Assembly (NCBI GenBank): GCA_009781635.1
Contig: WQXU01000005.1
Coordinates: 77,443-117,133, forward strand
Reading direction: 5' to 3'
Origin: Treponema sp.
GTDB taxonomy: Bacteria; Spirochaetota; Spirochaetia; Treponematales; Breznakiellaceae
DNA length: 39,691 nucleotides
A program made the translations under genes and the position numbers. Below are positions 1,353 to 36,364 of this stretch, in pieces; positions within the stretch are counted from its first letter, which is position 1, and each line of letters starts with the position of its first letter. The notes below the pieces were generated by a model. The model was not told the origin of the DNA. It saw only the letters and a program-made list of their open reading frames with translations, and ran no database searches.

Positions 1353-3545
1353 ATGATAGAAAACTTGTATTGGATAGGTTATGTGGGCGCGGGCGCAGCG
1401 CTTCTTTTTGCATTAATACAAATAATTAAGGTAATTAAATATCCGGAAGGCAGCGAGGATATACAAAGGATTGCAGCTGCGATCCGCGAAGGCGCAAACG
1501 CTTTTATGAAACGTCAATACAGCACTGTTGCTGTATTTCTTGGCATCATGTTTGTAATTTTATCATCGCTTGCATACATACCGCTTCTTATGGGTTACGA
1601 GGAAGGGCTTTTAAATCCATTCACGCCGTTTGCTTTCATTACAGGCGGCACTATTACAGCCCTTTGCGGGGTTGTTGGCATGAAGATTTCTACGCTGGCA
1701 AATTCCCGCACCGCTCATGCCGCTGCAACGCAGGGACTTAACAGGGCGCTTCGGGTATCTTTTGCATCAGGCTCCGTTATGGGTTTTATTGTAAACGGAC
1801 TTGCGGTACTGGAACTTACGATTTGGTTTATGCTCCTAAGATATGTATTTAAGGTAGATGATGCGACAATTGCATATACCATGGTTACTTTCGGAATGGG
1901 CGTTGCTGTTGTGGCTGTTTTTGCCCGTGTCGGCGGCGGTATTTTTACCAAGGCAGCCGATGTCGGCGCAGACCTTGTAGGAAAAGTTGAAGCCGGTATA
2001 CCGGAAGATGATCCAAGGAATCCTGCTGTTATTGCCGATAACGTCGGCGACAATGTCGGGGATGTTGCCGGAATGGGCGCAGACCTTCACGAGTCAAATT
2101 CAAATGCTCTGGTGGCGACCATTGCCATCAGTTTCGGCGCAGGTTACGGCATTGCAGGGTTTATGCTGCCCATAATTGTATCTGTAGTCGGTATTCTTTC
2201 TTCCATTCTGGGTACATTTTTTGTGCGGACTAAGGAAAATCTGGATCAAAAATCGCTTCTTAACTCTCTGCGCGGAGGCGTTTATATCGCCGGAGGCATT
2301 GCGGCTGCCGCTACGCTGCCTCTTATATTGTTTGTAGCACGTAATGCAGGCCCTGAAATGTTTGCAAACCGCTGGGGTATCTACGGCGCAGTTATTATTG
2401 GCATTGTTGCCGGTTTTATAGTCAGTCTTTTTACAGAGTATTATACTTCAGATGCCAGCAAGCCAACGGTTGAACTTGCCGAATCGAGTAAATACGGAAC
2501 CGGGCCATTGATGATTGGCGGTTTGGCTCTTGGCATGAAATCCGCCGCAGGACCTATTGTAACCATATCCGGCGCTGCTTTGCTTAGCTTTATTGTTTCC
2601 GGAGGCTTCAGATATTTTGATGCCGGTCTTATATTGGATTACAATGCGGGGCTTTACGGTATAGGGCTTGCCGCTGTGGCGATGCTCGCTACAAATGCCA
2701 TTATTCTTGCCACCGACGCTTTCGGCCCTGTTGCGGATAACGCAGGCGGCATAGCGCAAATGGCGAATTTGCCGGAAGAAGTGCGCAATCGTACTGACGC
2801 TCTTGATTCACTTGGAAATACAACTGCCGCTACCGGAAAGGGCTTTGCGATTGCTTCCAATGCATTTACCGGCCTTGCGCTTTTAGTATCTTTTGTAAAT
2901 ATCGGGCTTGCGGAACTAAGAAAGGGCTGTAATATATGCACAGAATATTTAAACTGCGCAGAACACTCGCTCAATCTCTCCATTGTTAATCCGCCTGTTC
3001 TGGTTGGCTTTTTTGCAGGTTCGGCTGTGGTATTCCTCTTTGCGGCGCTTTGTATGTCTGCTGTACAGCGTGCAGCGCAGAGCATTGTAGGCGAAGTAAG
3101 GCGGCAGTTTAAGGAAATTGAAGGATTAATGGAAGGTACGGCAAAGGCCGATTATGCGTCATGCGTTGATATTTGTACGCGCGGCGCGTTAAAAGAAATG
3201 ATTGCTCCCGCAATGCTGGTTATTATCGGGCCTATCGCCGCCGGTATCCTGCTGGGTGTTGCAGGCGTAGTCGGTTATCTTGCAGGGATTATCGTTGTAG
3301 GTTTTACCCTTGCTGTATTTATGCTGAACTCCGGCGGAGCCTGGGACAATGCCAAAAAGTATATTGAAAAGGGAAATCTTGGCGGCAAGGGCAGCATTAA
3401 TCACAGGGCAGCGGTTATAGGAGATACAGTAGGCGATCCTCTTAAAGATACTGCAGGGCCCTCATTCAATAATGTTATTACAGTTTCCTGCACAGTCGCA
3501 ATTGTGTTTATTGGCGTAACTCTCGCATTTTCGTTATTTCATTAA
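1353..3545 (+). CDS. hppA: membrane-bound ion-translocating pyrophosphatase (K+-dependent type)
   Basis: A 730-residue polytopic membrane protein that couples pyrophosphate hydrolysis to H+ and/or Na+ export. The family's pyrophosphate/Mg2+ sites are all present: DVGADLVGKVE, DNVGDNVGD (Asp229 onward), DAFGPVADNAGG (around residue 454) and the C-terminal HRAAVIGDTVGDPLKDTAGP. The motif GNTTAATGKG has Ala at residue 492, where K+-independent enzymes carry Lys; in this family Ala marks K+-dependent enzymes, a group that includes Na+ pumps. Which ion is moved cannot be decided from motifs alone. AGGAG at 1338-1342 sits at good spacing before the ATG. It is monocistronic and convergent with the tRNA-Leu unit downstream. 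Length is normal for the family. Confidence 0.97.
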   Translation: MIENLYWIGYVGAGAALLFALIQIIKVIKYPEGSEDIQRIAAAIREGANAFMKRQYSTVAVFLGIMFVILSSLAYIPLLMGYEEGLLNPFTPFAFITGGTITALCGVVGMKISTLANSRTAHAAATQGLNRALRVSFASGSVMGFIVNGLAVLELTIWFMLLRYVFKVDDATIAYTMVTFGMGVAVVAVFARVGGGIFTKAADVGADLVGKVEAGIPEDDPRNPAVIADNVGDNVGDVAGMGADLHESNSNALVATIAISFGAGYGIAGFMLPIIVSVVGILSSILGTFFVRTKENLDQKSLLNSLRGGVYIAGGIAAAATLPLILFVARNAGPEMFANRWGIYGAVIIGIVAGFIVSLFTEYYTSDASKPTVELAESSKYGTGPLMIGGLALGMKSAAGPIVTISGAALLSFIVSGGFRYFDAGLILDYNAGLYGIGLAAVAMLATNAIILATDAFGPVADNAGGIAQMANLPEEVRNRTDALDSLGNTTAATGKGFAIASNAFTGLALLVSFVNIGLAELRKGCNICTEYLNCAEHSLNLSIVNPPVLVGFFAGSAVVFLFAALCMSAVQRAAQSIVGEVRRQFKEIEGLMEGTAKADYASCVDICTRGALKEMIAPAMLVIIGPIAAGILLGVAGVVGYLAGIIVVGFTLAVFMLNSGGAWDNAKKYIEKGNLGGKGSINHRAAVIGDTVGDPLKDTAGPSFNNVITVSCTVAIVFIGVTLAFSLFH

Positions 3546-3550
3546 TCTAA

Positions 3551-3591
3551 AAAAAAAGGTGCTGTCCAAGATTACTTCTCGGACAGCCCCC
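3551..3591 (-). terminator. probable rho-independent terminator ending the tRNA-Leu region (may also serve hppA)
   Basis: A stem of GCTGTCC (3561-3567) and GGACAGC (3581-3587) with a 13-nt loop. On the minus strand the hairpin is followed by ACC and a run of T (complement of the A-run at 3549-3558), which suits termination of minus-strand transcripts from tRNA-Leu. On the plus strand it lies just after hppA but the following T-run is weak. Confidence 0.6.
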
Positions 3592-3645
3592 TTGCTTTTA
3601 TATGAACTGCGGCATTTAATGGTGCTCCCAGCGTGCGGCAAGTAC

Positions 3646-3670
3646 AAAAAAAACACCGCTTGACGCGGTG
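3646..3670 (-). terminator. rho-independent terminator in repeat unit 1
   Basis: Minus strand: CACCGC-GTCAA-GCGGTG followed by eight T. It lies 14 nt beyond the T-arm copy of unit 1, so a transcript entering from tRNA-Leu would end here if it passed the identical terminator in unit 2. Confidence 0.8.
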
Positions 3671-3683
3671 CCTGTATTAGCTG

Positions 3684-3999
3684 TGCCCGGAAGAAGACTC
3701 GAACCCTCCACCCCTCAACATCCTGTCTCGGGGTTCCGGGCCCGCCTTCGGGTGCTGTCGGCGCCATCCATGGCGCCTATTCCTCCCATTCGGTCGGCGC
3801 ACCCTGCGGAAGTTCGAGTCTATTTGTGTAACTGATTGTTTTTTTGTTAGTGAAAATTTTTATTATTACTTAATCAATAACGCACTGTCGGACACCTAAA
3901 GGTGTCCTTGCTTTTATATGAACTGCGGCATTTAATGGTGCTCCCAGCGTGCGGCATGCATAAAAAAAACACCGCTTGACGCGGTGCCTGTATTAGCTG
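3684..3999 (-). mobile_element. tRNA-3'-end-nested element, Leu copy 1 (distal)
   Basis: This is the outer unit of the tandem pair. In minus-strand order it holds the terminator and trailer of the inner unit, an AT-rich spacer, the inverted T-arm copy at 3808-3821 (14 nt, matching the tRNA-Leu T-arm perfectly), a core with GGCGCCAT-GG-ATGGCGCC and an AACAGGATGTT-type hairpin closed by C:G pairs, and the 21-bp copy of the tRNA-Leu 3' end at 3684-3704. It has no coding potential for a recombinase, so it would be non-autonomous. Its duplication with a terminator could also be ordinary segmental duplication. Confidence 0.5.
3962..3986 (-). terminator. rho-independent terminator in repeat unit 2
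   Basis: Minus strand: CACCGC-GTCAA-GCGGTG then eight T. It is the first strong terminator after tRNA-Leu, which predicts a primary transcript of about 325 nt made of the tRNA plus the whole nested element. Confidence 0.8.
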
Positions 4000-4202
4000 T
4001 GCCCGGAAGAAGACTCGAACCCTCCACCCCTCAACATCCTGTTTCGGGGTTCCGGGTCCGCCTTCGGGTGCTGTCGGCGCCATCCATGGCGCCTATTCCT
4101 CCCATTCGGTCGGCGCACCCTACAGAAGTTCGAGTCTATTCGGGTAACTGATTGTTTTTTATTAGTGGAAATTTTTATTGTTATTTAATCAATATATTGA
4201 TC
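4000..4202 (-). mobile_element. tRNA-3'-end-nested element, Leu copy 2 (next to tRNA-Leu)
   Basis: It begins directly after tRNA-Leu. In minus-strand order it holds a 65-nt AT-rich spacer, an inverted copy of the tRNA-Leu T-arm at 4125-4137 (13 of 13), a 104-nt core, and a direct 21-bp copy of the tRNA-Leu 3' end at 4000-4020 (identical to 4203-4223). The core has an outer stem GGGTGC/GCACCC, an inner perfect hairpin GGCGCCAT/ATGGCGCC and a final hairpin with AAC-AGGAT-GTT at its tip. The plan and the final hairpin are shared with the elements after tRNA-Trp and tRNA-Ser(GGA). Confidence 0.6.
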
Positions 4203-4286
4203 TGCCCGGAAGAAGACTCGAACTTCCATACCCTTGCGAGCACTAGTACCTGAAACTAGCGTGTCTACCAATTCCACCATCCGGGC
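4203..4286 (-). tRNA. tRNA-Leu (anticodon CAG)
   Basis: Minus-strand cloverleaf of 84 nt with a 7-bp acceptor stem (GCCCGGA/TCCGGGC), discriminator A, the long variable arm of a class II tRNA, anticodon stem CTAGT/ACTAG with loop TTCAGGT (anticodon CAG), and T-arm loop TTCGAGT. CCA is not encoded. Its last 21 nt are repeated at 4000-4020 and 3684-3704. Confidence 0.97.
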
Positions 4287-11642: not shown

Positions 11643-11709
11643 TTAAATACAGCGCTGTTTAAAACGGATCGCGTTAGCTGTCAATTTTAAAGCGGTGTAT
11701 TAAAATTAT

Positions 11710-11782
11710 AGGCGTATAGCTCAGCTGGTAGAGCTACGGTCTCCAAAACCGTGGGTCGAGGGTTCAAGTCCTTCTGCGCCTG
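11710..11782 (+). tRNA. tRNA-Trp (anticodon CCA)
   Basis: 73-nt cloverleaf: acceptor AGGCGTA/TGCGCCT, discriminator G, anticodon stem ACGGT/ACCGT with loop CTCCAAA (anticodon CCA), T-arm GAGGG/CCTTC with loop TTCAAGT. From C56 of the T-loop to 4 nt past the tRNA (11765-11786) the sequence is repeated exactly at 11974-11995. Confidence 0.97.
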
Positions 11783-11995
11783 AAGCGGTAAGTGCTACCG
11801 CCAAAGAAAAGTGCGGCAATAAGCCCATGTTGTTAACATGGATGAAAGAAGGACTTGAAACTTTTTTGCGGCCTGGAGGAGCCGAAAGGCTCCGTAAGGT
11901 AAACCGGCAAGGATGCCGGTTTAGCAAAAAAGACGGCCTGGAACGAGGCAACAGGAGGTTGCCGAGTGGAAGGCAAGTCCTTCTGCGCCTGAAGC
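11783..11995 (+). mobile_element. tRNA-3'-end-nested element, Trp copy
   Basis: After tRNA-Trp comes a 65-nt spacer, then an inverted copy of the tRNA-Trp T-arm (11848-11861, 13 of 14), a 112-nt core, and a 22-bp exact direct copy of 11765-11786 at 11974-11995 (period 209 bp). The core has three hairpins: GGAGCC-GAAA-GGCTCC, a 10-bp stem with loop AGGA (11900-11923), and GGCAAC-AGGAG-GTTGCC (11947-11963). It has no open frame worth reporting. It separates tRNA-Trp from secE and would be part of the operon transcript. The plan is shared with the Ser(GGA) and Leu copies. Confidence 0.65.
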
Positions 11996-12021: not shown

Positions 12022-12201
12022 ATGAAGAAGATAATTCAGTTTTTTAAAGAATCCTATGCGGAACTTAAAAAAGTAGTTTGGCCAGGCAGGGACGATGTAA
12101 TCAGCTCGGTTAAGGTTGTTATTATTTCCACTGTCATCGTGGCTGCGATTCTTGGGGTTATTGACTTGCTGCTGTTCAGAGGTATAACAGCTTTATTCTA
12201 A
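12022..12201 (+). CDS. secE: protein translocase subunit SecE
   Basis: A 59-residue single-span SecE. An amphipathic start MKKIIQFFKESYAELKKVVW with the conserved WPGRDDV is followed by one transmembrane helix (VKVVIISTVIVAAILGVIDLL). It clamps the SecYEG protein-conducting channel in the inner membrane. ATG at 12022 is preferred over GTG 12007 and ATG 12016 because GAAGG at 12009-12013 then has good spacing. The gene follows the tRNA-nested element by 26 bp and precedes nusG by 20 bp. Confidence 0.96.
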   Translation: MKKIIQFFKESYAELKKVVWPGRDDVISSVKVVIISTVIVAAILGVIDLLLFRGITALF

Positions 12202-36060: not shown

Positions 36061-36277
36061 TTAACGGAGAGAGAGGGATTTGCCTTACATTCAGCAACAT
36101 CCTGTTGCCTCATTCCAAGCCGCCTGCGTGTTGCGCGGCGCATCCTGCGCCAACTTTCTTTCAAAGCAAGGCTTTCGCCTTGGATTTAGACAGCAACACT
36201 TCGGTTCAAATCCCTCAATTAACTCCTAATAATTAATTATTGTTAGTGATTAATTATAATCGCTAATAACAGCTTAA
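36061..36277 (-). mobile_element. tRNA-3'-end-nested element, Ser(GGA) copy
   Basis: In minus-strand order: a 61-nt AT-rich spacer after tRNA-Ser, a perfect 14-nt inverted copy of its T-arm (36203-36216), a 120-nt core, and a 22-bp exact direct copy of the tRNA 3' end (36061-36082, identical to 36274-36295; period 213 bp). The core has hairpins AAGGC-GAAA-GCCTT, GGCGC-AGGAT-GCGCC (36137-36151) and GCAAC-AGGAT-GTTGC (36094-36108). The last and its flanks (TGGAATGAG before it, GTAAGG after) closely match the Trp copy. No recombinase is encoded. The 3' end abuts the nfu leader. Confidence 0.65.
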
Positions 36278-36364
36278 CGGAGAGAGAGGGATTTGAACCC
36301 TCGGTACCCTTGCGGGCACACAGCACTTCCAATGCTGCACCTTCGGCCACTCGGACATCTCTCC
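36278..36364 (-). tRNA. tRNA-Ser (anticodon GGA)
   Basis: 87-nt class II tRNA on the minus strand: acceptor GGAGAGA/TCTCTCC, discriminator G, anticodon stem CAGCA/TGCTG with loop TTGGAAG (anticodon GGA), long variable arm, T-arm GAGGG/CCCTC with loop TTCAAAT. Its last 18 nt are duplicated at 36065-36082. Confidence 0.97.

Follow-up and report, generated by a model that had tools for sequence, protein, structure and literature searches.

Hairpin elements laid out like Escherichia coli RtT are inserted behind tRNA and tmRNA genes in spirochaetes

RtT (RF00391, rttR) has so far been treated as an orphan curiosity of Escherichia coli and as a side product of tRNA processing. Its layout can be read at tyrV of strain K-12, where ∼59 nt of spacer separate the tRNA-Tyr gene from an inverted T-arm (GGGGAAGGAT), which is succeeded by a hairpin core and by the segment AATCCTTCCCCCACCACCA, which repeats the tRNA from position 58 to CCA, the whole occurring three times with a period of 178. 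The structure of RtT in Rfam is closed by the inverted T-arm and the tRNA copy. A further K-12 locus, proK (tRNA-Pro; L317, NC_000913 3707900-3709300), carries an unannotated RtT-type unit whose arms are partly matched to tRNA-Pro, and a second, truncated unit that runs into BIME-like sequence. Only a remnant is present at proK of E. coli strain M24, and in 2659 of 5426 E. coli genomes there is a site at which most of the Pro unit is covered. According to published work, Actinobacillus has RtT close to genes for tRNA-Asn and tRNA-Lys (PMC4986893), RtT-like sequences have been placed with or within BIMEs (PMC2965389), and Salmonella has a 175-bp VNTR at the rtT RNA and a 220-bp VNTR at a tRNA-Gly (PMC2658671). 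In the openly readable literature, we found no treatment of RtT as a mobile class.

In the stretch of DNA from a termite-gut-type Treponema analysed here (39.7 kb in all, referred to as the window), an element with this layout follows the tRNA-Trp gene (Table 1). The initial annotation of the locus knew of no named class with such a plan, which has to be corrected, because E. coli RtT (RF00391) at tyrT/tyrV, and also the unit at K-12 proK, are laid out in the same way. As in RtT, the element lies directly 3' of a co-oriented tRNA and consists of spacer, inverted T-arm, and hairpin core, tandem units include the flank, and the closing stem is formed by the inverted T-arm and a second copy of the tRNA 3' end that starts in the T-loop (at position 58 in RtT). 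On the other hand, the spirochaete core is unrelated. There is no RF00391 match in the window, either at the gathering threshold or at E up to 10, and the covariance model of the spirochaete 3' module (R1, see below) scores 6.7 bits on the E. coli locus. The spirochaete family also differs in its range of hosts, at least 16 kinds of tRNA plus tmRNA. Since R1 does not match RtT, the likeness shown is that of layout and T-loop junction, and common descent is no more than a possibility.

Table 1. Features of the tRNA-Trp, tRNA-Ser(GGA), and tRNA-Leu(CAG) elements in the window
Feature	Position	Strand	Remarks
tRNA-Trp (CCA), host gene	11709..11783	+	ARAGORN and Rfam
Left direct-repeat copy, from tRNA-Trp T-loop position 56/57 to 3' end plus 4 nt	11765..11786	+	
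Spacer, original downstream flank of tRNA-Trp	11787..11846	+	
Inverted host T-arm (complement of positions 54 to ~66), left arm of Trp element	11847..11859	+	
Core of Trp element	11860..11931	+	
Conserved 3' module (model R1) of Trp element	11932..11974	+	covariation
Right copy of tRNA-Trp 3' end	11974..11995	+	exact repeat of 11765-11786
secE	12022..12201	+	distance from tRNA-Trp widened by element
R1 module, first tRNA-Leu(CAG) element	4012..4061	-	
Inverted T-arm, first tRNA-Leu(CAG) element	~4125-4137		
tRNA copy, first tRNA-Leu(CAG) element	4000-4020		
R1 module, second (tandem) tRNA-Leu element	3696..3745	-	period 316
Inverted T-arm, second tRNA-Leu element	~3808-3821		
R1 module, tRNA-Ser(GGA) element	36076..36124	-	
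Inverted T-arm, tRNA-Ser(GGA) element	~36202-36215		
Direct repeats, tRNA-Ser(GGA) element	36274-36295 and 36061-36082		

The 22-bp direct repeat and the three strong hairpins first noticed at tRNA-Trp are both present, the repeat being exact, with a spacing of 209. The inverted T-arm is present as well and 100% complementary to 11763-11775, but it spans 13 nt (11847-11859) and not 11848-11861. Within the core, a stem CTTTTTTGC/GCAAAAAAG is formed around both a GAAA hairpin (11878-11893) and an AAGGA-loop hairpin (11901-11922). The R1 module is a CCTGGAA..CAGGAGG..TGGAAGGC hairpin joined straight to tRNA position 57, so that T-loop 56|57 of tRNA-Trp is the right-hand fusion point of the element. 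When compared with shuffled sequences, the element strand folded as RNA gives z scores of -7.0 with the tRNA and -6.1 without it, and folded as DNA it gives -8.2.

The same plan had been noted at two further tRNAs, and it is indeed found there: tRNA-Ser(GGA) has one such unit, and tRNA-Leu(CAG) has two in tandem. Across the whole window, exact repeats that are 18 bp or longer and recur within 450 bp were found in three places only, all at tRNA genes: Leu(CAG) at 3500-4286, Trp, and Ser(GGA) at 36061-36295. The element is absent at the window's tRNA-Thr (11297) and tRNA-Ser (CGA, 39418). Rfam identifies only tRNAs in the window and has no match for the element.

The core sequence is repeated within the host genome. 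The covariance model R1, which represents the 3' module, was built from 12 copies and has the consensus GGCCTGGAA-N-GA-stem-CAGGATG-stem-GA-N-TGGAAGGC (in short form CCTGGAA..CAGGATG..TGGAAGGC). Searches with R1 gave 16 matches in the host genome, matches in 29 of 40 relatives (1-17 copies each), and matches in 44 of the 296 Spirochaetota genomes, distributed patchily over nine families. These many spirochaete matches, none of which leads to a known Rfam family, bear out the earlier view of a family rather than a local accident. A pattern scan of ∼85,000 named species genomes returned termite-gut Treponema and other Spirochaetales, and eleven pattern matches in other phyla, none of them at tRNA genes, look like chance. 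No account of the spirochaete family was found in the openly readable literature. Across 111 distinct R1 copies, two-sided changes occur at all 14 pairs (348 cells versus 105 in shuffles), and this covariation signal is lost when the partner is slid.

The order of parts is tRNA, spacer, inverted host T-arm, hairpin core, R1 ending in GGC, and the tRNA again from position 57. The inverted arm ends with GAA, the complement of U54-C56, at the start of the core. In a few copies (the window's Leu units and some at tRNA-Gln), the tRNA copy begins at about position 53. In f1, the family of the window, the core starts at a median of 73 nt past the tRNA (middle half 70-76, with a few at 24-38), whereas in f2-f5 it starts ∼61 nt past the tRNA and the inverted arm is longer, with a median of 17 nt. 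A terminator T-run lies close before the left junction in 13 of 19 f2-f5 copies versus 9 of 59 f1 copies. A rule by which the left junction always lies right behind the tRNA terminator was therefore rejected, since it fails in f1. The distance from the tRNA to the start of the core seems to fall preferentially near 24, 49, and 74 nt, which is possibly a spacing rule. In one complete genome (L252, G225), five tandem units with a period of 185 are found behind tRNA-Asn.

Of the ∼114 copies in the relatives and 57 in the wider phylum, nearly all follow a co-oriented tRNA or tmRNA gene immediately on its 3' side. The host genes are of at least 16 kinds (Trp, Arg, His, Ser, Leu, Asp, Asn, Lys, Gly, Thr, Pro, Met, Gln, Ala, Cys, Glu, Tyr, and tmRNA). 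Where an intact tRNA is missing, the copy lies at a contig end, an IS break, or an N-run, behind a prophage that occupies tRNA-Met (L190), or behind a tRNA split by an island (L255, L282, L160, and L170), with the 3' part of that tRNA still preceding the element. We rejected larger, autonomous versions of the element, because the apparent tRNA-less copies are contig ends, IS hits, the tRNA-Met prophage, and island-split tRNAs. Some of these disrupted loci have features of their own. At L190 (G009:C14), the prophage, with integrase and terminase-like ORFs, sits in tRNA-Met directly before the element. Several contigs of the host genome (L003, L005, L007, L010, L014, and L015) break off in the core hairpin or next to it, where an IS with termini AGAGTCTGTAG.. 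and ..CTACAAGCTCT ends; the hairpin loop seems to be the target of this IS. At tRNA-Trp of G014 (L212/L136) and in the host genome (L010, C14), the second tRNA copy is split by a further tiny insert, a small palindrome (e.g. GCGTCATGCGCAGCATGACG).

Could such structures arise without a dedicated element, by ordinary tandem duplication combined with palindrome-making replication errors at tRNA genes? Tandem arrays are common, and quasi-palindrome errors can make inverted copies. However, a module with 14 covarying pairs and fixed motifs, found at many kinds of tRNA and in nine families, already refutes this explanation for the core. We consider it very improbable as a full account, although array growth and part of the arm-making may still be explained by it.

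Next, we consider the evidence from sites with and without the element. Among 29 genomes compared at tRNA-Trp/secE, the element is present in 4, whereas the R1 module is missing in 25, which indicates that the element is an insertion. In keeping with the earlier statement that it splits tRNA-Trp from secE, the two genes are ∼240 nt apart in the window versus mostly 35-75 nt in relatives without the element. The spacer of the Trp element opens with the hairpin GCGGTAAGTGCTACCGC, and a similar hairpin is found in the empty-site flanks of G005 and G024. Indeed, the short Trp-secE spacer of close relatives opens with a hairpin like that after the first tRNA copy here.

The freshest copies have a direct repeat that runs past the tRNA end for a total of 62-79 bp, up to or a few bases before the inverted arm. 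At tRNA-Trp of G013 (L111), a 79-bp repeat is free of mismatches, the 77-bp repeat at tRNA-Thr of G018 (L161) has a single one, and the others measure 62-75 bp. Therefore, filler, inverted arm, core, and R1 sit, in this order, between two copies of the target stretch. The duplicated stretch extends from T-loop position 57 to about +45 to +62 past the tRNA, and the host tRNA is kept intact. The right junction is constant, and the left junction is variable, with short filler. As to the window's 22-bp duplication of the tRNA 3' end, the repeat exists, but it is best read as the kept part of a 62-79-bp target duplication and not as a repeat owned by the element. The right tRNA-Trp copy is accordingly read as a remnant of target duplication, which looks decayed in comparison with the fresh insertions elsewhere. 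Between near-identical strains, no insertion event was seen. For the spirochaete element, insertion is shown, as are the landing place, the junctions, the duplication, and the host-matched arms described below.

Both ends of the element follow the tRNA at which it lies. The 12-nt inverted arm has a mean of 0.62 mismatches with its own tRNA versus 3.59 with other isotypes, and for the 16-nt direct tRNA copy these values are 0.62 and 8.14, respectively. Cores that are at least 86% identical occur at different tRNAs, each with locally matched arms, and the local match of both arms holds even for cores with an identity of 88-95%. In G016, for example, the tRNA-Arg and tRNA-His cores are 95% identical and their arms are different, each matched locally. 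Because near-identical cores have locally matched arms, the arms must be made from the target. Cores at the same tRNA type are more similar across genomes than in permutations (0.684 versus 0.624, 0 of 2000), whereas cores within one genome are not clearly more alike (0.619 versus 0.604). Movement between tRNA kinds is therefore supported, but as a rare process relative to inheritance or same-tRNA transfer. The grouping by tRNA type and not by genome speaks against elements that often jump from one tRNA to another and is more easily reconciled with slow spread, homing, or vertical descent.

Integrases are known to cross over in the T-loop. The elements might be attachment-site remnants or satellites of tRNA-integrating islands that are moved by a tyrosine recombinase with its crossover there, and prophages or islands do lie in tRNA genes beside some copies (the L190 prophage and truncated tRNA-Met genes). 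However, an integrase would bring its own tRNA end, whereas here the tRNA, its copy, and the 60-bp flank are all local and not element-borne, and a flank like that of the empty site follows the first tRNA copy. Moreover, neighbouring islands have separate junctions of their own, and the inverted T-arm is left unexplained by this account, for which we see hardly any likelihood.

The main rival reading is that the element specifies a functional small RNA cut from a read-through tRNA transcript, either a CsrA sponge or an RtT-like stringent-response RNA, with arms selected for closure and for cutting by tRNA enzymes. CsrB has hairpins with NNGGAN-type loops, and likeness to RNAs of the CsrB/RsmY type is found in the several spirochaete hairpins with (A)NGGA loops. 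The module loop is C-AGGA-N-G in ∼108 of 120 modules, and a perfect hairpin with an NNGGAN loop is present in 77 of 89 cores versus 1.8 in shuffles. The csrA gene was present in all 13 good-quality carriers tested. Because only carriers were tested and csrA is expected in non-carriers too, its presence is uninformative as to a partner and does not discriminate. RtT itself has been reported to be processed from tRNA operons and seen on Northern blots (PMC4986893).

On the other hand, no CsrB/RsmY-type family of Rfam matches above threshold (RsmY scores 12.1 bits versus the 57 needed), and position and arms are dictated by tRNA genes. G-U pairs are avoided, unlike in usual RNA: they account for 2.0% of pairs in the module and 1.1% in its main stem pairs, versus 7.0-7.6% in the T and acceptor stems of the tRNAs at the same loci (p ∼1e-9, kinship among copies being ignored). 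This scarcity favours, though indirectly, an object with Watson-Crick pairs only, e.g. single-stranded or cruciform DNA. GNA-triloop DNA hairpins were rejected as a feature, because they occur in RtT but at about shuffle frequency in spirochaete cores. Furthermore, f2-f5 elements mostly lie behind the tRNA's own terminator, presence is patchy with copy numbers of 0-17, and the 62-79-bp duplication is not explained by a small RNA alone. Weighing these points, we regard the small-RNA reading as unlikely.

Instead, we are inclined to believe, if only slightly, that these are mobile, protein-free hairpin elements of the RtT kind that land next to tRNA and tmRNA genes and take their ends from the target. 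In the scheme that we propose, worked back from the end products, the antisense strand of the tRNA gene would be nicked in the T-loop, at 56|57. Copying of the folded element, be it RNA or single-stranded DNA, would then start at its constant 3' end and extend the 3' end exposed by the nick. At the far end of the element, the new strand would snap back and copy 9-22 nt of the attached target, giving the host-matched inverted arm, before being linked near +60 to the upstream side. Tandem arrays would later form by homologous recombination, the duplication would decay outside its tRNA part, and the mobilising enzyme would act in trans or be a household enzyme. This single scheme would explain why the right end is constant and the left end variable and provided with filler, why the duplication is long, and why the arms match the host.

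A target-primed reaction has a precedent in R2-type non-LTR retroelements and their non-autonomous forms, which share with the spirochaete elements a constant 3' and variable 5' junction, a target duplication, and a fixed site in a conserved RNA gene. They differ in that no linked or correlated reverse transcriptase is found in spirochaete carriers, and we know of no counterpart among them for an inverted target copy at the 5' end. Alternatively, insertion could be RNA-guided, in the manner of a natural prime editor with nickase and reverse transcriptase, the inverted T-arm being a guide on the tRNA sense strand and the second tRNA copy a primer-binding site. The geometry would fit, as 3 nt separate the junction from the constant end of the arm, the junction being on the strand with which the arm would not pair, and 3' ends are constant and 5' ends variable. 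However, a carried guide cannot explain the different, matching arms on 95%-identical Arg and His cores, many carriers (e.g. G008, G031, G033, G036, and G039) are without RVT_1, and proteins of the IscB type (RRXRR) are absent, in contrast to IscB/OMEGA guide RNA systems. An RNA-guided reaction is thus quite doubtful, more so than a small RNA.

No mobilising gene was found for the trans-acting scheme. The presence of RVT_1, Y1_Tnp, and RRXRR does not track copy number, and all three are missing from G008, a genome with 17 copies. For lack of this correlation, we rejected reverse transcriptase, Y1 transposase, and IscB/IsrB as partners; Y1 transposase is absent in G008, G021, G022, G031, and G039, which have 7-17 copies. 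A phage or plasmid vehicle was rejected as well, since phage and plasmid collections contain no match to the core and the one pattern match on a viral contig is without a tRNA. Reverse transcriptases are encoded at L240 (G000:C3) and L237 (G013:C1); by eye they resemble those of diversity-generating retroelements, and their presence is unlinked to the tRNA elements. In being non-coding, hairpin-based, dispersed, and without a gene of their own, the spirochaete elements are like REP/BIME sequences and REPINs. However, REPs scatter in intergenic DNA, whereas the spirochaete elements are confined to tRNA T-loops, have host-matched ends, and come with a 62-79-bp duplication, and, in contrast to REP/REPIN with RAYT, Y1 transposase does not track them.

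Taken together, the same anatomy at at least 16 kinds of tRNA, the empty sites, and the long target duplications identify this as the anatomy of an insertion reaction. The spirochaete family is a multi-tRNA variant of the RtT kind, and the RtT kind as a whole now looks mobile, by a mechanism that we infer. More tentatively, and with somewhat less than even confidence, we suggest that gammaproteobacterial RtT and the spirochaete family may be two branches, or two inventions, of one unrecognised mobile class, i.e. protein-free hairpins that would use the T-loop of any tRNA gene and have both ends rebuilt from the target by primed copying and snap-back. This poses the puzzle of an element without its own gene that takes its ends from the target, which can be tested in E. 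coli K-12, and the E. coli RtT set may make a new kind of mobile element testable. If true, such a mobile class would explain oddly long tRNA-distal spacers and the strain-typing repeats at tRNA loci.
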